DNA of 25,092 nt from a virus. Shown here piece by piece: positions 2,680 to 24,034 of this stretch (positions are counted from its first letter, which is position 1; every line of letters begins with the position of its first letter). Position numbers and translations under genes: made by a program. The stretch is from positions 1-25,092 of the IMG/VR virus record IMGVR_UViG_3300006793_008009; one strand, given 5' to 3'. The notes beneath the pieces are model-generated. The model did not search any database and was not told where the DNA came from. It saw only the letters and a program-made list of their open reading frames with translations.

Positions 2680-5600
2680 CTATGCTAAAATCTTAAAGTT
2701 TCTTCTGACTGACCTTGTACTGAATCCCCACTGAGGATCCCACTGAAGTCTAGACATGTAAGGTCTGTTAATATAAACCTTGTCTTTCGCTGGGTCTACT
2801 CCCCAGCACTTGATTGTATTCTCTTCTGAGTTTGAATCAACAACCTTAACTACGTAAAATACCTTACCATTTCTTGTCTTCTTTTGCAAGACTTCTCTTG
2901 GAATAAACCAACAAACGCCCAACTCAGGATCGAATTCGGAAATAGGAGGTATCATCTTCTCTTCAAATAGTGACTGTAGTTGCTCACTAACCACCGCGCT
3001 CACCGGAAAGATGCCTGTAAGTGTAACGAGATGTTGCAACTTCTCCTCTTCAGAGAAGTCCCCTAAGTCCTTGTACAACTCTATATTCTCATTCAGATTC
3101 TTCTCCTTTCTGGGTCTCTGTATGGCGACAGCGGTCCAAAAATGTTCCAATCCAGTAAACCTCTCATCCATCAAGCAGTTGAGTGCCTGTGCCCTAGTGA
3201 GTGCGTCAACCGCTTTCTTGTTCAGTTTAGAGTAGACAACGTTCTCATTAAAGAGGAATTCCTCTATCGTCTTGAATGGTCGGTTGTTGATTATTTGCGC
3301 TATGGCAGTAGATCCAAGTCCCTTGATGGACGATAGAGGTTGTATGAGAGTTTTTCCATCTTCGCTAATCTCCCACCTTACGCCAGACGTATTAACATTC
3401 AACGGTTCGATTTTGTACCCATACGACTTCGCGACATTGATTGCTCGTTCTTTTCTCTTGTCTGGTTCTTTGTCCAGGAATGCTGCCAACCAACATTCAG
3501 GATAATAGTTAAGCAAATAAGCACACTGGTAAGAAAGAACGCAATAGGAGACAGCGTGAGATTTGTTGAAACCATATCCAGAAAAATATTCAAACTTTTC
3601 CCAAAGTTCTTTTGCCTCATGTTGCTTCATCCCCTTTTCTATACACCCTCTACGAAACTTATCGTAGATCTTGTCCTTCTCTGTTGCTGCTGATCCAGTA
3701 CCCTTCTTTGTCAGTAGTTTACGTAGTTTGTTACCGTCATCTAGAGAGAGATCCTTGCCTAGTTTGTGGGCGAGCATTGCAATCTGTTCTTGAAAAATAA
3801 GAAAACCATAAGTCTCTTCTGTAACCTCCTTGACTCGTTCATTGAGGTACTCTACATCTTCGGGGTTTTCCTTGGCGCCGACATACATCTTGTCAACGCC
3901 TGCAGACAACGGACCAGGACGATATATAGAAGTAATGGCAGCAAGGTCTGTAATATTATTCGGTCTAGCATTCTTGCAGAATGACTGTGCGCCGCCTTCG
4001 GTGAACTGGAAGATACCTGCCCACTTGCCTTCATGAAATACATTTTCCCAGACCTCCCTATCGTCAAGATCAATCTTCTCTGGATGTAACCTTTCTTCGT
4101 AAAAGTTTCTAATATCATCAAACGTAGGATCCTTAAATCCCTCATGCCTTACCAGTATGTGGCGAATTGCATCCTCCATCATGCGAAGCGAAGCAAGTCC
4201 CAAAATATCAAACTTGATAAACCCCATCGGTTCTAAGTGCCGGACGTTCATACCTTCTGACCAGGGTGTCTGACGTACGCCTCCTGAGTTGATCAGTGGC
4301 ATCCACTTATCCAAGTTTTCACCCACAACAACCCCACCTGCGTGTCGAGATGCAGACCGTGTTTGTCCGTAGAGCGTATTAACGTGTGTTTCTACCTCTG
4401 GATATTTCCTCAAGAACTGCTGCAAGGAATCGGAATACTGCATCAACTCGTCAAAGGTAGGATTGTAAACACCTGCTGTGATTCCGTGCGCTTTCTTAGC
4501 AAGCGGAGTTGCCTCGAAGACCATCTTGTTAGTTACAGCATTCACTTCAGTGAATTCAATACCGTAAAACTTTGAAATATCTTTGATCAAAGATCTTAAC
4601 TGCAACGTATTCCAGTTCGTGATTGGTACCACAACATCATCGCCCCACTCTTTGATAAGGTGCTCCTTCAGGACCATTGGGTCGGAAACATCATAATCGA
4701 TATCAGGATATCCAGATCCACCTTTTGTCAAAAAACGCTCAAATTGAAGTCCGTAACGGATCGGGTCAACTTGAGTGATACCCAAGGCATAAGCGACCAA
4801 AGAACCGGCAGCAGAACCTCTTCCTGCGCCTGCTAACTGCATCTTCGTTGCCTCGTCGGCAATCTTCTTCATTGTTAAGAAGTACTTGCTGAACCCTCTG
4901 TCCTCTATGATCTTGACCTCGTACTCAAGGCGCTCCAGATAGACTGGGTTTTCTGCAAAACCTCGGTCCCTTGCTCCTGCAACCGACAGCGCAATCAAAG
5001 TTTCTCCCGCCGTTGATCCATCCGGTACGACAAAATCTGGGAGACGTACCTTGTTGTCTGGCAAGAACGATTCTATTCTCTCATGGGCAATCTGGTGTGT
5101 TCGCTTGATGGAGTTCAAGACCACGTTATCGTCATACTCCACACCGCATTCTTTAGAATACTTTTTATAACTCTCCCACATCTGGTCACCGTTCTTTGGA
5201 TACAACTCGTATCCAATGTCGTCGACGTCAACAGGCAACTCATCGGACAACCACTCTACCTTTCTACCGAGAAAACCAAGTCTTTTGTAGAGTTCTCGGT
5301 CTTTCCAGGCATCTGGAGAGTAATAGTGCGAGTCCGCAGTAGAGATTAATTCTATTCCGAACTCATAGTGCATCTGAATAATGAACTGATTCAATATGTG
5401 TTGTTCAGGCACACTGTTCCACTGCAATTCTCCATACCATCGGTCCCCAAAGATTGCCTGCATTTTCTGTGTTGTCTTGCGCATAGCATCAAGGACTGCG
5501 TCTTCACCTTCGTCCCGGTTCTGCCAATAATCACCAGCATATACGCCACCCAGACAGGCGCTGGCAGCGATGACACCCTCTCCGTGTTTCTTGAGTAGAG

Positions 5601-6102
5601 CATAGTCAATTCTTGGATAGCGATAGAAGTGATCCCCAGTGTATGACTTGGAAATCATCTTATAGATGTTCTGTAGTCCCGTCTGGTTCTGGGCAATCAA
5701 GATCATATGACTTCTTCGATTAAGAATCGACTTCATCTTCTTTTTTGACGCCTCATTTTCCACAGTCGCGCCTGATTGCATCGACTCTAGCGCCTCCTTG
5801 TTTTTGGCATCTTCTCGCGCCTTATCGTAATCAACCTTCCAGTTTGCAATACTTGGTACAAAGTACGCCTCACAACCAAAGATTGGTTTAAACTCCTTGC
5901 CGTCAGCGTGCATCTTCTTCGCATGCAAAACCTGATACGCTAATCCGTTAGCATTGCCGTGGTCGGTCAACGCGAGCGCGTCCATGCCATTTTCAAACGC
6001 AAAGTCCATATGCTGCTGTGGATAACCCAAAGCATCAAAAATGGATCCCGCGACGGAATGTGCATGCAAACCCACAAACGGTATTGATGGTTGTTCTCTC
6101 AA
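2680..6102 (-). CDS. dnaE: DNA polymerase III alpha subunit (family C, DnaE-type)
   Basis: A 1140-aa, essentially full-length DnaE-type replicative polymerase. The N-terminal PHP domain (about 8-270) keeps what I align as all nine metal ligands: H13, H15, D23, H48, E78, H132, C183, D257 and H259. This is the pattern of PHP domains with 3'-5' exonuclease activity, and several are lost in E. coli DnaE. The polymerase core has AGAGRGSAAGSLVAYALG (425-442), catalytic Asp467 and Asp469 in PDIDYD, RHAGGVV (586-592), the third Asp632 in FDILGL, YRPGPL (727-732) and SGYGFNKSHAVSY (841-853). A helix-hairpin-helix is at about 923-937 and a probable OB fold at about 1020-1105. I see no canonical C-terminal clamp-binding tail. 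It overlaps the upstream 273-aa gene by four bases. Confidence 0.97.
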   Translation of the reverse strand: MREQPSIPFVGLHAHSVAGSIFDALGYPQQHMDFAFENGMDALALTDHGNANGLAYQVLHAKKMHADGKEFKPIFGCEAYFVPSIANWKVDYDKAREDAKNKEALESMQSGATVENEASKKKMKSILNRRSHMILIAQNQTGLQNIYKMISKSYTGDHFYRYPRIDYALLKKHGEGVIAASACLGGVYAGDYWQNRDEGEDAVLDAMRKTTQKMQAIFGDRWYGELQWNSVPEQHILNQFIIQMHYEFGIELISTADSHYYSPDAWKDRELYKRLGFLGRKVEWLSDELPVDVDDIGYELYPKNGDQMWESYKKYSKECGVEYDDNVVLNSIKRTHQIAHERIESFLPDNKVRLPDFVVPDGSTAGETLIALSVAGARDRGFAENPVYLERLEYEVKIIEDRGFSKYFLTMKKIADEATKMQLAGAGRGSAAGSLVAYALGITQVDPIRYGLQFERFLTKGGSGYPDIDYDVSDPMVLKEHLIKEWGDDVVVPITNWNTLQLRSLIKDISKFYGIEFTEVNAVTNKMVFEATPLAKKAHGITAGVYNPTFDELMQYSDSLQQFLRKYPEVETHVNTLYGQTRSASRHAGGVVVGENLDKWMPLINSGGVRQTPWSEGMNVRHLEPMGFIKFDILGLASLRMMEDAIRHILVRHEGFKDPTFDDIRNFYEERLHPEKIDLDDREVWENVFHEGKWAGIFQFTEGGAQSFCKNARPNNITDLAAITSIYRPGPLSAGVDKMYVGAKENPEDVEYLNERVKEVTEETYGFLIFQEQIAMLAHKLGKDLSLDDGNKLRKLLTKKGTGSAATEKDKIYDKFRRGCIEKGMKQHEAKELWEKFEYFSGYGFNKSHAVSYCVLSYQCAYLLNYYPECWLAAFLDKEPDKRKERAINVAKSYGYKIEPLNVNTSGVRWEISEDGKTLIQPLSSIKGLGSTAIAQIINNRPFKTIEEFLFNENVVYSKLNKKAVDALTRAQALNCLMDERFTGLEHFWTAVAIQRPRKEKNLNENIELYKDLGDFSEEEKLQHLVTLTGIFPVSAVVSEQLQSLFEEKMIPPISEFDPELGVCWFIPREVLQKKTRNGKVFYVVKVVDSNSEENTIKCWGVDPAKDKVYINRPYMSRLQWDPQWGFSTRSVRRNFKILA

Positions 6103-6920
6103 AGTACTTCCCTTTCGTCTTTCTTGAATGATTTATCAAAACACCATCTCCAGTCACCATTGACTTTGATGGGATCGGTCATCATCTCACAATAACCGTC
6201 CCAAGTGGATATGTCATAATAATAATCTACTTCATGTGTTTCACTGTTCTCAATCATTATATCATCACCGAACACTTTGTCAAGTGTATAGTCGCCTTTT
6301 GTGTCCATTCTTTTGAACAAATACGAACAATGCTTAAATTGTCTTGCATTAAAACTAAACCCGAGATGGGCACCTGTCCTGGCACTCTCTCCCTTGTGCG
6401 TGAGAAATACTGAATCGTTACTCTTCACGAGCGATCTGACCTCTACGCTTTTTGGGTAATAGACACCGTACGGCATTGACACGTAGTATCTATGTGGAGT
6501 TACCCACTTACTTATCTTGTCGCTTACCGTGTAACTCGCATAAACGCCCTCCATGACCGAGACCCCTATGCCTTTTTTGTTCATGTGCTTGTAAGAGAGC
6601 GGAACGTAGTACACCGGAACCTGTGTCCTCAAGTCTGAGGGGAATTTTGCATACTTTGCTCTCTCGTGCTGTGCTAGGTTCAAAACAAAGTCTCCACAGA
6701 TCTTCTTGAGGACTGGGGCAATTGACTCGTCACAAACTACCCATATTGTTTTGCACCCAAGATAAGAACACTCCGCTATACTTCTTTGCACAGCGTAGTA
6801 GTTATTTGCGATTGGTAACATGCTTGGGTGCAACAGGAGATCAATATCAGACTGGACTTTGGATACTGGAACTATTCCTGCGATATGCTTTGAGGATGTC
6901 ATCTCGTTTTTGTCTGTCAT
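6099..6920 (-). CDS. Unknown phage protein with nucleotidyltransferase-like (GT-A) N-terminus
   Basis: A 273-aa soluble protein. Residues about 12-80 (GIVPVSK, LHPSMLPI, YYAVQRSIAECSYLGCKTIW, VVCDES) resemble the N-terminal half of NDP-sugar nucleotidyltransferases. In those, a short proline-containing loop is followed by a helix and then a strand at a C/GCKTIWVV-like segment. The usual glycine-rich nucleotide loop is missing, so activity is uncertain. The rest (VPVYYVPL, KWVTPHRYYVSMPYGVYYP) is rich in aromatic residues and unrecognised. The start lies 74 bases inside the preceding gene; Met7 (6902) is the only near alternative, and the conserved-looking domain begins just after it. It is coupled to dnaE by a four-base overlap. 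Confidence 0.6.
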   Translation of the reverse strand: MTDKNEMTSSKHIAGIVPVSKVQSDIDLLLHPSMLPIANNYYAVQRSIAECSYLGCKTIWVVCDESIAPVLKKICGDFVLNLAQHERAKYAKFPSDLRTQVPVYYVPLSYKHMNKKGIGVSVMEGVYASYTVSDKISKWVTPHRYYVSMPYGVYYPKSVEVRSLVKSNDSVFLTHKGESARTGAHLGFSFNARQFKHCSYLFKRMDTKGDYTLDKVFGDDIMIENSETHEVDYYYDISTWDGYCEMMTDPIKVNGDWRWCFDKSFKKDEREVL

Positions 6921-7614
6921 AGTACTTAACCTTCTTGCTGCTTTTGTACACTACCTCTTCTAGTGGAGTCACCCTTCTCTCAATAACTTCAAGATTTGGG
7001 TTACGCCTAGATTCACCACGTGTTATAGGTCTGTGCAGTCTTTCGTCTTTCAATAACTCTTTCTGACTTGCGAACCTAACAATGGTATCAGAGTAATCAA
7101 AGTTTGTCAACTGCTCTTTTGTAAGGTTACAAACTGCGACTACTTCTTTTTTACCAAAACACCTAATGAGATCAATAAAAGACTCCTTTGGAAAGATTGT
7201 ATCTATATTAGTCACATTACAAAATTTTAGTCTCATAAAATCCATAGTTTTGTATAGATTTTCGTGTTCTATTTTGCGGATATCTAGGTCTGTCTTAATA
7301 GTCCGGGAAGGGAAAAGGTGACACTTCTCGAATTCGAGACTCGTGCCCCTGAAACCAATATTGTTTTTCTCTATTCTCAGGAAATCAAGTGCATCAGGGT
7401 TAATGATCAACCCCCTCATAGAGCACAGGAACTTTAACATCGACCAAGCATCAACGACTTCCAAAGTGTTGAGCGTCTCAATTCGTATTGGGTGTTCAAA
7501 CCTCTTGTCAACAGATGGAGATTCGTAATCAACAAGGACGATAGGTGTTCCCTCCGAGTAGGACTTCAAGAGGGCATGGATGCAAGATCCAACTATCACA
7601 TCACTTAGTAACAT
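6847..7614 (-). CDS. Unknown protein, possible Rossmann-like N-terminus
   Basis: A 255-aa protein I do not recognise. The first 30 residues (LLSDVIVGSCIHALL, then PIVLVDYES) have the strand-loop-helix-strand look of a Rossmann-type nucleotide-binding unit. The glycine loop is degenerate (VGSCIHA), so I do not call an oxidoreductase. The middle contains hydrophobic and charged alternation with no clear motif. The C-terminal 60 residues are strongly basic (RGESRRNP, YKSSKKVKYYDRQKR) and could bind nucleic acid. Its end overlaps the next gene by 74 bases, one of the longest overlaps in the window, and its start overlaps the lipoprotein gene by 10. Nothing in the sequence gives a function. Confidence 0.55.
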   Translation of the reverse strand: MLLSDVIVGSCIHALLKSYSEGTPIVLVDYESPSVDKRFEHPIRIETLNTLEVVDAWSMLKFLCSMRGLIINPDALDFLRIEKNNIGFRGTSLEFEKCHLFPSRTIKTDLDIRKIEHENLYKTMDFMRLKFCNVTNIDTIFPKESFIDLIRCFGKKEVVAVCNLTKEQLTNFDYSDTIVRFASQKELLKDERLHRPITRGESRRNPNLEVIERRVTPLEEVVYKSSKKVKYYDRQKRDDILKAYRRNSSSIQSPV

Positions 7615-9671
7615 ACCATCAAATCATAATCATAGCGTAGAGAGTACAGTACCGGTTCGAATAGACCAGAGTTCTCCTCTGGTAGACATATCTCATCGAG
7701 TATCGACATAAGATCATTGTACATCTGTTCGGCGTTGTCGGTCAAAACAAAGGTATCTCCACCTGTTGGTCTTGTATATCTAACCCAGCGGTTCTGGTAG
7801 TAAGACTTTGTAAAGACAAACAACTTTGTGTCTGGAGACGCAGACAGGGCATCGATCAGCGGGTCTGGATCCAAAGATGGGTCAAGGAAAGACTGGTCCT
7901 CTTCGTCCGTAAAAACAATTATTATTCTATCCGCGTCAGATCTCCAGTTAATCTTAAAGTCCCTAAGAATAGGCATAGAATCTATTTGATTGAACCTGTT
8001 GACCCATGACGCCACCGAGAGATCGTAAGGCAAATTGGTGGAAATTGTACTTATTGATAAGTAAATAGCGTCCCTCAACATTTCGCTTGTAGTACCACCG
8101 AAATTTCCAGCAGAGGAGAATGCTGACATAAAGTCTGTGAAACTAACAATGTCGGTCTCTCTCCTCAACCACTCGGTCTGCTGATTCGGGTGTATGCCTT
8201 CTACAGGAAACGACCTCGGTCCAGTGACCAATCCCCACTTCAACTTTTGTTCGGCAGAGAACTGCCCAGCGAATCTGTTCATTGCTGTTCGCACTGCATT
8301 GATACTGTATTCCATTGAACCCGACCAGTCCACAATAAAAAGAATATCTGTATCTGGAATTGCTTCTCCGAAGTCGGTGGTGCCATCACAGTCATTGTCT
8401 GCGCCGTCGCAGATCTCTCTACTTGGCACAACCTCGCCAGCACAAAAGTCAATAAGTAGGTCCCCATTCGACAGTTCTCCGAACCATTGACCTTCCTTAC
8501 ATACCATCTCTCCAAGTGCGCACACTCCCACTCCGCCAGTACCTTCTGGTCCAGAGTAGCAAGGTTTTGATAGATTTTCGTCCACTAAATCATCACAGTC
8601 TTCGTCAAAATTGTTGCAGACTTCTGGATTTACGGGTATTCCCAGTAGGGCATCACAAGATTCTGGTTCTTCTGCTGGTAACAACTCTTCAGGTAACCAA
8701 GCACATAAGGCAAGGCAATCTGAATACTTTGTGATGGAACAATCGTCGTTAGTACACTCACAAGTTTTAAATCCCATGCCGCAAGACAGGGGTGGTTCCA
8801 TACAAGGAAGTAATGCGCCTATCATTTCAGGAGGACACTCACACTCTATGTCTTCGTCGATCAATGCGTCACAGTCGTTGTCCTGCCCATCGCAGGATTC
8901 CTCTGCCGGACGGCGGGCAGTGCACCCGACCCACATGCCCTCGACGCAAACCTCGACACCGCGAGCGCACTGAGTTACACATTCTCGTATTAGATCTTCA
9001 TCGGTGTCTCCATCGCAATCGTTGTCGATGCCATCGCATGTGTCCTGCAGGAGTGGTCCGCACTCTTCGCAAGCATTCAATTGATTCTCGTCAATTAAAT
9101 TATCGCAGTCGTTGTCATAACCATCACAGGTCTCGTCAGAGGGAATACAAGTGATGCACTCACCGTAATAAAGTCGACCCTTGTCACACCTCACTTCTTG
9201 CCTGCCAGTTACTCCCAAAGTTTCGCAATCATAGTACATCGTAAAGTCCTCGTTGATACCTGGTGGGCAGTCAAAGGCGTGGTTGCAACTGCTTTCATAG
9301 ATAATCTCTGCCGGTGGGCAAGTGTCGTCCAGGTTTCTATCACAAGGAACGTGGTCTTCTCCGCAGATGTCCAAGATAGCATCCTTTGCCAAGATTTCAG
9401 TTCCAACTGGTGGGCAATACCAAGTCTGTTGCTGACAACAGCGAGGAAAGCATTCACAATAGTCCTCGTCTATGTTCTGGACGTCGGCACAAGGGTCAAC
9501 ATAAGCATCGACTGTGATGTCTGGGATTTCTATGATTTGCACGTCCGGAGACAAAAGGTCAACAGATAGACCTACGCGTAAGTCATTTGTATCGCCTTGC
9601 TGTGGCACCTCGTCTGCACAACTAGCAACCGCCAGTAATAGTATTGTAAACTTGCTTAACTTTCTTAACAT
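7605..9671 (-). CDS. Lipoprotein with MopE-like Asp/Cys repeats and a von Willebrand factor A domain
   Basis: A 688-aa predicted exported lipoprotein. Residues 1-17 are a signal peptide (Lys/Arg n-region, FTILLLA core) with lipobox VASC and lipidation Cys18. Residues 60-440 are very Cys-rich and contain five copies of a C-D-G-x-D-N-D-C-D-x-x-x-D-E motif starting at about C182, C212, C260, C352 (diverged, CNNFDEDCD) and C421. This is the putative metal-binding MopE-type repeat. Residues about 441-660 form a VWA domain with an intact MIDAS: DWSGS (448-452), TT (527-528) and FTDEED (587-592). Such proteins normally sit on bacterial surfaces and bind metal or ligands. In a phage it could modify the host surface, for example in superinfection exclusion or adhesion. 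It overlaps the transglycosylase gene by 50 bases. Confidence 0.88.
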   Translation of the reverse strand: MLRKLSKFTILLLAVASCADEVPQQGDTNDLRVGLSVDLLSPDVQIIEIPDITVDAYVDPCADVQNIDEDYCECFPRCCQQQTWYCPPVGTEILAKDAILDICGEDHVPCDRNLDDTCPPAEIIYESSCNHAFDCPPGINEDFTMYYDCETLGVTGRQEVRCDKGRLYYGECITCIPSDETCDGYDNDCDNLIDENQLNACEECGPLLQDTCDGIDNDCDGDTDEDLIRECVTQCARGVEVCVEGMWVGCTARRPAEESCDGQDNDCDALIDEDIECECPPEMIGALLPCMEPPLSCGMGFKTCECTNDDCSITKYSDCLALCAWLPEELLPAEEPESCDALLGIPVNPEVCNNFDEDCDDLVDENLSKPCYSGPEGTGGVGVCALGEMVCKEGQWFGELSNGDLLIDFCAGEVVPSREICDGADNDCDGTTDFGEAIPDTDILFIVDWSGSMEYSINAVRTAMNRFAGQFSAEQKLKWGLVTGPRSFPVEGIHPNQQTEWLRRETDIVSFTDFMSAFSSAGNFGGTTSEMLRDAIYLSISTISTNLPYDLSVASWVNRFNQIDSMPILRDFKINWRSDADRIIIVFTDEEDQSFLDPSLDPDPLIDALSASPDTKLFVFTKSYYQNRWVRYTRPTGGDTFVLTDNAEQMYNDLMSILDEICLPEENSGLFEPVLYSLRYDYDLMVCY

Positions 9672-10098
9672 AATGCAACCTTTTGTAAAAACCTTTCTTA
9701 GTGACGCACTTCATTCCTGCGTTGTAGACACACAGTCCCTTGTCAACATTTCCTTTTCCATACACTCTTATGCTATAAGAGAGGATCCTTGCTCCTGCTT
9801 CGATGGCAGTGTCGGGACTCTTCAATTGTTTGCAGGTGTACTCCCTACCCTTGGTTTCTTTTCCGCCAGTCCACTTGGGTATTACCTGCGTTAATCCGCA
9901 AGCGTTTGCACTACTGACAACGTGAGGGTAAAAAGAACTCTCAACGAACATAACAGACGCCAAGAGCGCTGGGTCTATGTTGTTTAACTTTGCCTGGTTT
10001 CTTATTTCACTCTCATATTTGCATATGTTAACCTTCTGTGTGGAAGAAAGATCATAATGCTGGTTGAACAGCAGGCAAAGTGAAAACAAGAAGGTCAT
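9622..10098 (-). CDS. Lytic transglycosylase (SLT/GEWL family)
   Basis: A 158-aa peptidoglycan lytic transglycosylase, cleaving MurNAc-GlcNAc bonds to form 1,6-anhydro ends. The fold runs from about residue 28 to 150. Catalytic Glu53 is in MFVESSF, followed by the family motifs SSANACGLTQV (62-72) and VYNAG (124-128). The N-terminus (MTFLFSLCLLF) is a short hydrophobic stretch without basic residues, possibly a weak signal peptide or signal anchor. It could act in lysis, local wall digestion, or with the adjacent exported lipoprotein. It lies outside the tail module. It starts with a four-base overlap on thyX and ends 50 bases inside the lipoprotein gene, which suggests co-expression. Confidence 0.9.
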   Translation of the reverse strand: MTFLFSLCLLFNQHYDLSSTQKVNICKYESEIRNQAKLNNIDPALLASVMFVESSFYPHVVSSANACGLTQVIPKWTGGKETKGREYTCKQLKSPDTAIEAGARILSYSIRVYGKGNVDKGLCVYNAGMKCVTKKGFYKRLHYVKKVKQVYNTITGGC

Positions 10099-10802
10099 GA
10101 CTTCTCCATCTTGCTTTTAATGAAAGACTGCACTGAATTTGGAAATAGTTCTTCTGCAATATCCAAGCATGCCTCGGCAACTTGTTGAATCTCCCACTGA
10201 GCACCAGAATGGGAACGAAGGGACACAAACTTGAGGAGATTGTGAAGATTCACAGTCCCGTAATATTGTGTATACAGGTTTTGAGGCAAAACTCCTCTTG
10301 CTTGCTCTCTGCATACTCCCGATTCAAGCATCTTGTCAAAGAGTTTTACGCACTCTTGGTGGTGCGTCTTCACCAAAGTCGAAGCGCTGGCGGAGACAGG
10401 AAACCCAGATCTGTTGTATTCGACAATTGGGTCTATCAAGTCGTCAGTGCTCGCCTGCCTGTTGCTCTTGTGTTGTTGCCTAAACTCTTTAGGTTCATAA
10501 AAGTTGATGTCTACAGACGTATAGCGTCGAGAGATCTCATTGTATGCCCAAGTACGGTGTCTATGGTGCTGACTACGTATAAAGAGAGGTACTGTAAACC
10601 TAAATGTGATAGCGCAATGCTCAAAAGGAGAACTATGGTTATGATCCATAAGGTAGTTGATAAGTTTGATATCCTTCTCATCTACTTCTTCTTTTTCCGA
10701 TCCGAAGGAAACTCTTGCCGCGTTAACGACTGACAGATCTGAACCCATATGTGAAATGTACTCAACCGCACCAATGTCGTCCCCAAATAAATTAATCTTC
10801 AT
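10095..10802 (-). CDS. thyX: Flavin-dependent thymidylate synthase ThyX
   Basis: A 235-aa ThyX, which makes dTMP from dUMP using FAD, NADPH and methylenetetrahydrofolate without needing dihydrofolate reductase. The signature RHR-x7-S is present at 81-91 (RHRTWAYNEIS), followed by RRY. The N-terminal SVVNAARVSFG and the HSSPFEHCAITFRF segment (56-69) are typical family elements, and the C-terminal SLRSHSGAQWEIQQVA region carries conserved substrate-binding residues. Length is normal. It continues the pathway from RNR and dUTPase in the same window. Its start overlaps the GroES-like gene by 11 bases and its stop overlaps the transglycosylase start by four. Confidence 0.97.
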   Translation of the reverse strand: MKINLFGDDIGAVEYISHMGSDLSVVNAARVSFGSEKEEVDEKDIKLINYLMDHNHSSPFEHCAITFRFTVPLFIRSQHHRHRTWAYNEISRRYTSVDINFYEPKEFRQQHKSNRQASTDDLIDPIVEYNRSGFPVSASASTLVKTHHQECVKLFDKMLESGVCREQARGVLPQNLYTQYYGTVNLHNLLKFVSLRSHSGAQWEIQQVAEACLDIAEELFPNSVQSFIKSKMEKS

Positions 10803-11112
10803 CTGGTCTCCTGTAAATTCCTACTATGTAGTTCTCCAAAACAACATAATGCTTTTTATCTCCAACCTCGACCGTCTCGATCATGGACCTATCTACTATT
10901 GCAGTGACAGAGTTCCTCGACAACTGCTGCATTCTTTTCAGATCCTCTTTGCAATCTGCTGCGATATCGACAACAGTCGCTTTAACGAAGCGAGACTCCT
11001 CTTGCTTGTAATCATCAGGCAACAGAACTCCCGTGTCTGTCTTCTTATCCGCAAAGTGAGGTACGATTGTCACGTACCTGTTTAGCGGTTTAAGTGATTG
11101 AATTCTAGACAT
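10792..11112 (-). CDS. GroES/Cpn10-like co-chaperonin
   Basis: A 106-aa protein with the Cpn10 pattern. It starts LKPLNRYVTIVPHF (7-20), then has a short mobile-loop-like segment KKTDTGVLLPD, whose hydrophobic GVL would dock on the GroEL apical domain. It ends HYVVLENYIVGIYRR, like the C-terminal GroES strand. The Gly-rich turn between the halves is weak and the middle (SRFVKATVVDIAADCKEDLKRM) is diverged, as seen in T4 gp31-type phage co-chaperonins. No GroEL is present in the window, so it would work with host GroEL, perhaps to fold a virion protein. It overlaps thyX by 11 bases and the 90-aa gene by 8. Confidence 0.75.
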   Translation of the reverse strand: MSRIQSLKPLNRYVTIVPHFADKKTDTGVLLPDDYKQEESRFVKATVVDIAADCKEDLKRMQQLSRNSVTAIVDRSMIETVEVGDKKHYVVLENYIVGIYRRPDED

Positions 11113-11407: not shown

Positions 11408-11436
11408 ATAATACTAGATTGTATCAAATAATGCAA
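11408..11436 (-). promoter_or_regulatory. Sigma70-type promoter P1, upstream of the 90-aa gene/groES/thyX
   Basis: The minus strand reads TTGCAT (-35, 11436-11431), a 17-base spacer, and TATTAT (-10, 11413-11408), preceded by TAG. The expected start point near 11401 would give a leader of about 24 bases. The -35 and most of the spacer overlap the last codons and stop of the HNH gene. The same ACACTTGCATT and TAGTAT-n-ATTA-n-TCTA blocks occur at matching positions in P2 on the far side of that gene. The pairing makes chance occurrence unlikely. Confidence 0.75.
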
Positions 11437-11966
11437 GTGTTTTTTTTGATTTCTTCCAGAAACTGTTCATAAGGTTTGCCTTGCTTCTTTGTGTTGCAGT
11501 CCCGACAACAAGGCACAACATTGTCTGGTACATATCCTTTGTTGCTGTCTTTTCTGTCGAGTCCAGTTACTTCTATGTCGACACCACAATAGTGACAAGG
11601 TTCGCCCCACAGTTTACTTTCGTATATCTGAAAAGGCAGCGCAAAATTTATCTCTCTTACCTTTGCGCTTCTTTTGATCTTTGTGTATTTACCTTTTGGG
11701 GTTCGATGGTGTGCTTTTTTATATTCTTTTTTATATTCTTTATTTGCTTCGTAATATGCTTTACTATATTCTTTATAATATTCTTTATTTGCTTCGCGAT
11801 ATGCTTTTTTAGTTTCTTTTATATGTTCTTTATTTGCTTCGTTATATGCTTTATTGCACTGCTTGCAAGAATGTTGAAGACCGTCCTTGGTCTTCGTCTT
11901 CCTGTGAAAGTACTCCGGTGTTGCTGGTTTTTCTTCTTCACACTTAGTGCATTTCTTGTGCTGCAT
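11424..11966 (-). CDS. Free-standing HNH endonuclease with internal repeats
   Basis: A 180-aa putative homing-type endonuclease. The N-terminus has a zinc-finger-like pair set CTKC (6-9) and CKQC (34-37). Residues 41-85 are three 15-residue tandem repeats of the pattern Y-x-E-A-N-K-E-x-x-K-E-x-x-K-A, a charged helical spacer. The C-terminal HNH domain has CHYC (124-127), GLDRKDSNKGYVPDNVVPCC (135-154) and CRDC (154-157), with the Asp/Asn/zinc-Cys pattern of the beta-beta-alpha-metal fold. HNH genes of this type are mobile and nick or cut intron- or gene-lacking alleles. It interrupts an otherwise seamless operon between RNR and the 90-aa gene, with its own promoter (P2) and a near-copy (P1) at its 3' end. 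A modest AAAGGA precedes the ATG. Confidence 0.88.
   Translation of the reverse strand: MQHKKCTKCEEEKPATPEYFHRKTKTKDGLQHSCKQCNKAYNEANKEHIKETKKAYREANKEYYKEYSKAYYEANKEYKKEYKKAHHRTPKGKYTKIKRSAKVREINFALPFQIYESKLWGEPCHYCGVDIEVTGLDRKDSNKGYVPDNVVPCCRDCNTKKQGKPYEQFLEEIKKNTCII
11712..11846 (-). repeat. Three tandem 45-bp coding repeats inside the HNH gene
   Basis: Codons 41-85 of the HNH gene encode three successive 15-residue units, YNEANKEHIKETKKA, YREANKEYYKEYSKA and YYEANKEYKKEYKKA. The DNA repeats too, with ATTTGCTTCG-type blocks recurring on the plus strand at 45-base steps. The repeat probably arose by slippage or unequal recombination and sets the length of a helical linker between zinc finger and nuclease domain. 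Confidence 0.85.
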
Positions 11967-23674: not shown

Positions 23675-24034
23675 TTACTCAAACTTCTCGTTGCCTTCTA
23701 TTACAGCATTATACACGATTTCCCATTGAGTTGGTATATAAATCAACTCTCCGATCTTTGCATGAAAATCTGTTGGTTTTTTATTAAAAAGAGCGATGAC
23801 CCACCATAGCGTTGGATCTCCGTAGTGCTCTGCTGCCAGTTTATAAAATCTAGTTGAAATGTTCCAGTACACGAACTCAACATCGACTGATTGTATTATC
23901 TCATCTGTCAAGACAAAAAACTTTGGAGCAGTATAATGCTCTACTTTCTTCATGTCTCGGCGTTTGAGCAGATCTTTATAAAGAGGGTTGTTGTTCTCTC
24001 TTGTTTTTCTTAAACCATATCTAGAGTAAGTCAT
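23675..24034 (-). CDS. Baseplate protein, gp53/LysM-like
   Basis: A 119-aa tail protein. The core (64-103) reads FYKLAAEHYGDPTLWWVIALF, a few polar residues, then GELIYIPTQW. This is the LysM-like pattern found in the baseplate wedge protein gp53 of T4-like phages and in small tail-tube-associated proteins: an aromatic strand, helix with GDPTLWW, a second helix, and the G-x-x-I-x-I-P ending. It would sit in the baseplate at the tail end, not bind peptidoglycan. The first 40 residues are basic and of unknown role. It ends three bases before the 760-aa gene and overlaps the 286-aa gene by four. Confidence 0.82.
   Translation of the reverse strand: MTYSRYGLRKTRENNNPLYKDLLKRRDMKKVEHYTAPKFFVLTDEIIQSVDVEFVYWNISTRFYKLAAEHYGDPTLWWVIALFNKKPTDFHAKIGELIYIPTQWEIVYNAVIEGNEKFE

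Follow-up and report, generated by a model that had tools for sequence, protein, structure and literature searches.

The window analysed here is an IMG/VR virus record of 25,092 nucleotides, linear and probably a fragment. Among its minus-strand genes is an open reading frame, starting with ATG, for a protein of about 70 kDa that combines a lipobox, Cys-rich repeats and a VWA domain and to which we refer as the lipoprotein. Its features and those of the neighbouring genes are collected in Table 1. The gene sits between thyX and dnaE, outside any structural block, in agreement with a preliminary description which had placed it inside a replication/nucleotide operon. The overlap with a lytic transglycosylase (SLT) gene reported there was also found, with the 3' end of the SLT frame covering 50 nt of the lipoprotein leader. 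At its other end the lipoprotein gene is overlapped by u255 over 10 nt, an arrangement which is kept in most relatives.

Several further observations concern the surroundings of the gene. The adjacent u273 and u255 are kept together, their distances tracking each other (correlation 0.91), and are retained in a sister clade without the lipoprotein at the locus; u273 has no match in cultured phages. The ORF at 10792–11112 appears GroES-like by eye, and a GroEL-type chaperonin is present in 12 of 13 long relatives. The ORF at 11424–11966 appears by eye to be HNH endonuclease-like with a K/E/Y-rich N-terminal repeat, and was found in only one relative (L092). In L008, L010, L137, L139 and L241, unrelated proteins share the N-terminus M-x-x-[LI]-[MI]-E-x-W-R-x-[YF]-[LI]-x-E, which is reminiscent of the T4 capsid-targeting sequence and may tag proteins for packaging into the capsid in these phages.

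Table 1. Features of the lipoprotein gene and its neighbours (window positions; residues of the lipoprotein where applicable)
Feature	Residues	Position	Strand	Basis
VWA/MopE-repeat lipoprotein gene, 688 aa		7605..9671	(-)	ORF, Pfam, viral-contig relatives, alignment
Signal peptide ending in lipobox; Cys18, predicted lipidation site	1-18	9618..9671	(-)	Sequence; Cys18 invariant
Disordered acidic tether	19-60	9492..9617	(-)	pLDDT < 50 for 17-56
N-terminal Cys-rich beta domain	61-180	9132..9491	(-)	Model strands 79-174
Repeat 1, CDGYDNDCDNLIDE	182-195	9087..9128	(-)	Sequence, PF11617, invariant Asp/Cys
Repeat 2, CDGIDNDCDGDTDE	212-225	8997..9038	(-)	Sequence, PF11617 best stretch 210-225
Repeat 3, CDGQDNDCDALIDE	260-273	8853..8894	(-)	Sequence, conserved
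Repeat 4, CNNFDEDCDDLVDE	352-365	8577..8618	(-)	Sequence, conserved
Repeat 5, CDGADNDCDGTTDF	421-434	8370..8411	(-)	Sequence, conserved
VWA/integrin beta-I-like domain	441-662	7686..8351	(-)	AlphaFold2, Foldseek
MIDAS DWSGS	448-452	8316..8330	(-)	D448, S450, S452 invariant 42/42
Glu530, proposed integrin-beta-type MIDAS residue	530	8082..8084	(-)	Invariant 42/42
Asp589, last MIDAS residue, TDE motif	589	7905..7907	(-)	Invariant 42/42
Small SLT lytic transglycosylase, hydrophobic N-terminus		9622..10098	(-)	PF01464, 4e-17
ThyX thymidylate synthase		10095..10802	(-)	PF02511
u255		6847..7614	(-)	ORF; no Pfam/PHROG match
u273		6099..6920	(-)	ORF; no Pfam/PHROG match
DnaE-type DNA polymerase III alpha, clade marker		2680..6102	(-)	PF07733, 9e-50

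The leader ends in the lipobox LLLAVAS-C18, so that the protein has the signal peptide with a lipobox cysteine that marks bacterial-type lipoproteins, as had been proposed. Cys18 is invariant in an alignment of 42 sequences, and a strict lipobox rule is passed by 91 of 110 family members; for most of the 19 that fail it, a lipobox is visible on inspection or the true N-terminus is missing. The tether begins with A-D-E directly after Cys18. At position +3 after the lipobox cysteine (window 9612–9620) Asp is found in 35 of 41 relatives, and the +4 residue is acidic in about half of them, the rest of the tether being variable. The conserved Asp is perhaps a sorting signal. Together with the acidic +4 residue it is similar to the B. 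fragilis consensus of the Bacteroidota LES, an acidic run of the S-D-D-D-D type after the cysteine (PMC5080379). These residues suggest a Bacteroidota host, but Shine–Dalgarno motifs precede 16 of the 22 genes, compared with a background of 21%, which argues against such a host.

Five D/N- and C-rich repeats of the type C-D-x-x-D-N-D-C-D, the number given in the preliminary description, can be recognized by eye within residues 182–434, the fifth ending in DF rather than DE. Pfam assigns four significant stretches to PF11617 (Cu-binding_MopE; E = 5.6e-15, 55.7 bits against a gathering threshold of 27). The β domain which precedes the repeats has no Pfam match and belongs to no known family, and the lipoprotein as a whole matches no PHROG and no NCBIfam family. 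It contains 48 cysteines and would therefore need an oxidising compartment. The repeat is shared with MopE, but MopE is secreted to the medium whereas the phage protein has a lipobox. The copper site of MopE consists of two histidines and a Trp-derived kynurenine (PMC3423442). This set is absent from the lipoprotein, which has three histidines in all, none of them in an invariant column. The PF11617 match might suggest a metal scavenger, the repeats of which would bind copper or calcium for host or phage enzymes as MopE binds copper in Methylococcus. Given the histidines, and since the VWA head would be left unexplained, we regard this as very improbable.

The VWA family PF00092 is matched just above its cut-off (E = 5.1e-5; 24.0 compared with 23.8 bits) and over residues 442–483 only, but the remainder of the domain was confirmed by AlphaFold2 and Foldseek. 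The AlphaFold2 model, built on 42 relatives, has a mean pLDDT of 78 and a pTM of 0.44, a low value which means that the domain folds can be trusted but not their arrangement. It comprises a tether with values below 50 (17–56), a β-rich N-terminal part, the Cys-rich part with the repeats and, modelled with confidence, a Rossmann domain (441–662). The top Foldseek matches are integrin β headpieces (E = 7.4e-7), and the list also includes the vWF A1 domain. A profile built from the VWA sequence and compared with solved structures finds integrin β8 weakly (E = 0.008), pairing 'DTDILLIVDWSGSM' and 'KINWRQNADRIVIVFTDE' with integrin strands. The lipoprotein shares with the integrin βI and vWF A1 domains (PF00092) the Rossmann fold, the DxSGS MIDAS and, with the β integrins, the spacing of invariant Glu and Asp residues; identities in the structural matches are 9–17%, and no partner chain is known for the phage protein.

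The preliminary description spoke of a complete MIDAS, and this holds in part. Asp448, Ser450, Ser452, Glu530, Asp534, Asp589 and Glu590 are invariant in the 42 sequences, which gives a VWA domain with the DxSxS motif, the later Asp and the Rossmann fold. The pattern is, however, not the canonical DxSxS-T-D, as the Thr expected at position 527 is present in only 24 of 42 relatives whereas Glu530 is invariant. We take the spacing E530-x3-D534-A to match E220-x3-D224-A of integrin β3, and this spacing, with the invariant residues, is why we call the head integrin-β-like. The metal sites of integrin β3 use Glu220 and Asp251 (PMC3792891). The head of the lipoprotein may bind metal and, as its ligand, an acidic group. 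Other phages have CobT-like VWA proteins of the same fold, which are annotated as cobalamin-biosynthesis-like and are not known to be Cys-rich lipoproteins. Among the viral structures of BFVD, the one that matches best is the unnamed viral protein A0A516KYY5 of UniProt (E = 5e-20, 31% identity), which is short, with 266 residues compared with 688.

With 82 relatives in viral contigs of up to 281 kb, and with 69 invariant columns in 42 sequences, the family lies far beyond chance. A wider set of phage proteins in which the repeats precede a DxSGSM VWA domain brings it to at least 110 distinct members, while the 50,697 cultured-phage records contain no relative. The loci compared were fetched by DnaE alone and are thus unbiased towards the lipoprotein. 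Where DnaE is at least 72% identical the lipoprotein is present at the locus in 28 of 28 cases; below 72% it is present there in none of 31. The sister clade keeps the genes that flank the slot, and in its three tested genomes longer than 100 kb the lipoprotein is encoded elsewhere in two (G018 and G019) and is absent from one (G020). Most long relatives possess it. Comparison with related phages thus identifies it as a standing family-wide gene of these large phages which is fixed at the locus in one clade. We also note two tandem copies in L040 (7983–12609), the second about 31% identical to the protein of the window, and a divergent subfamily, about 30% identical, which occupies the same slot in L105 (6372–8405), L108 (5997–8108) and L111 (6250–8325) and is also found in L244–L248.

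The lipoprotein does not follow the replication genes closely. In L013 the DnaE is only 40% identical, compared with 62% for the lipoprotein, and in the lipoprotein tree the out-of-place copies, from distant large-phage genomes, fall within the in-place ones, and branches with strong support force at least five changes of label between the two. For the in-place members, lipoprotein distances correlate with those of ThyX at 0.62 (0.59 with DnaB held constant) and with those of the replication genes at 0.13–0.18 when ThyX is held constant; the distances of u255, u273, DnaE and DnaB track one another (0.66–0.91). ThyX also lies directly before the lipoprotein in L061, which belongs to another lineage. 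By these sequence comparisons, the lipoprotein has been exchanged between phage lineages and is co-inherited with its ThyX neighbour.

One pair of loci shows such an exchange at close range. L016 and L019 are 97.9–98.2% identical over 7.6 and 9.9 kb. Where L016 has 563 bp covering the SLT and the region of the lipoprotein leader, however, L019 has about 120 bp of dissimilar sequence. Each of the two leaders ends in a lipobox followed by x-D, although MLKKLSIYTVCFLTIVSC and MKKLTLLLFLFAC are unrelated. That an unrelated replacement leader again ends in a lipobox is a natural sign that lipidation matters, and indicates that selection maintains the lipobox. Synonymous divergence (dS) between the two loci amounts to 0.61 in ThyX and 0.32 in the lipoprotein, compared with 0.01–0.04 in DnaE, RNR, u273 and u255. 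In L002 an L003-like upstream part is joined around position 8055, close to codon 21 of the lipoprotein gene, to a window-like downstream part (99.9%). This contig resembles a recombinant; because it may be an assembly chimera, the argument from leader replacement rests on L016 and L019, where both flanks match. Diversifying selection on the lipoprotein was not seen, most pairs being saturated at synonymous sites, and the one unsaturated pair indicates purifying selection (dN 0.04, dS 0.32).

Conservation across the family could also mean that the protein is part of the virion, as a tail or capsid component whose lipobox would serve as a membrane-targeting signal in assembly or entry, and a baseplate-like gene (23675–24034) is transcribed in the same direction. 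We consider this quite improbable, since there is no PHROG match, the gene lies between thyX and dnaE and not in a structural block, the lipobox was retained when the leader was replaced, and the roughly 48 cysteines point to an oxidising compartment.

The preliminary description took the gene to be a host-derived moron and its repeat type to be a clue to the host. Among the matches listed, bacterial similarity is confined to the repeats, at about 31% identity, and comes mostly from Myxococcota and deltaproteobacterial MAGs. Some of the Myxococcota surface proteins with MopE repeats also have a VWA domain, but in all nine proteins with both parts among the matches listed the VWA precedes the repeats, the reverse of the phage order, and none matches over the full length. 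A profile which does match virus records found no full-length counterpart in 379 genomes of one bacterial phylum, that of the repeat matches; an orthologue may exist in other phyla. The comparison of base use gave no indication of foreign composition, the GC3 of the gene (0.46) being within the range of its neighbours. The patchy presence and foreign composition typical of a moron were thus not observed. Although Myxococcota and deltaproteobacterial MAGs are rich in MopE repeats, we find recent acquisition from a host scarcely credible in the face of 110 distinct phage members, fixation at the locus, a GC3 like that of the neighbours and no full-length homologue in the sampled genomes. As a clue to the host, the Myxococcota-like repeats offer a weak hint which, at about 31% identity, is not decisive. 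Judged by ribonucleotide reductase (66%), the cultured phage that comes closest is Microcystis phage Mel-JY01, the RecA of which is only 30% identical. The papers searched contained nothing relevant on VWA/MopE phage proteins.

The neighbouring SLT raises the question of whether the lipoprotein works with peptidoglycan hydrolases as an envelope or lysis factor, keeping the wall open or coupling the outer membrane to the peptidoglycan. The SLT overlaps the gene in the window and is nearby in nine of the 28 loci, and some other genomes have their copy of the lipoprotein close to a gene for an M74-like endopeptidase, phage lysozyme or PG-binding protein. The SLT is nevertheless facultative. It is missing from most loci, and it is present in L016 and absent from L019 while the lipoprotein is kept in both, so it was rejected as an obligate partner; in the sister clade it can occupy the slot without the lipoprotein (L120, L124 and L139). 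As the lipoprotein gene is moreover placed among replication genes, we judge such a role to be unlikely.

Our best guess from these sequences is a surface-displayed, metal-dependent binding lipoprotein. The lipobox, the 48 cysteines, the invariant MIDAS and the retention across the clade together suggest an exported, anchored binding protein, and its fixation in 28 of 28 loci and presence in most long relatives suggest that it is useful in nearly every infection. Of the surface lipoprotein originally described, the predicted exported, lipid-anchored character is supported and action at the host surface is probable, while the moron origin is not retained. Judging from the operon, the protein would be made with the replication proteins. 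It would be exported via the host Sec/lipoprotein route and, as judged by the E. coli +2 rule, probably anchored in the outer membrane, Asp being seldom found at position +2. The N-terminal β domain and the five EF-hand-like Asp loops would form a long, Cys-rich stalk, probably stiffened by calcium and disulphides, which holds the integrin-β-like head away from the host membrane, and the MIDAS would then engage a ligand of the host envelope. The phage would most likely benefit because a receptor is occupied or masked so that competing phages cannot adsorb.

We tentatively favour superinfection exclusion as the purpose of this putative exported, lipid-anchored, disulphide-rich binding protein. 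A precedent is the outer-membrane lipoprotein Llp of T5, which, like the related Cor proteins, acts on the receptor and so prevents superinfection (PMC9586334). The likeness to Llp and to Cor of T1 and phi80 is that of a phage-encoded lipoprotein with an outer-membrane role, and no sequence relation was found, the cultured-phage collection giving no match. Horizontal exchange with ThyX would fit a trait tuned to hosts or competitors. Three points speak against exclusion. Llp, which works in the periplasm and binds FhuA (PMC9586334), is small, as is Cor, whereas the lipoprotein is large and carries repeats and a VWA domain. The selection detected is purifying and not the diversifying selection that an arms race may leave. 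Finally, the peptidoglycan enzymes nearby in some genomes would also fit an envelope or lysis role. The protein may instead be an adhesin through which an infected cell attaches to other infected cells, to uninfected cells or to particles, bringing the progeny into contact with new hosts. Adhesins are usually built with an integrin/vWF-type VWA head carried on a Cys-rich stalk, and the leader with its lipobox would suit this role, but there is no direct sign of adhesion and a lytic infection leaves little time for aggregation to pay. Adhesion as the purpose is conceivable but rather unlikely.

The feature itself is confirmed and the preliminary interpretation of it is supported in part, the lipoprotein being a phage-family variant among phage-encoded surface lipoproteins and not a host moron. 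Those studied so far, Llp and Cor, are small, and a 70 kDa integrin-like protein encoded by a standing gene of a large clade differs from them. The pair L016 and L019 constitutes a natural experiment on retention of the lipobox, and the MIDAS residues and Cys18 are clean targets for tests of exclusion or adhesion. A clade-wide gene with no cultured-phage, PHROG or NCBIfam match suggests that, during infection, large phages remodel the surface of the host with big receptor-like proteins. It is possible, though far from assured, that large uncultured phages dress infected cells with an integrin-like, calcium-stiffened adhesion protein of their own as a core and near-universal function, trading its alleles between distant lineages, often together with thyX; this would be a new class of cell-surface receptor or adhesin.
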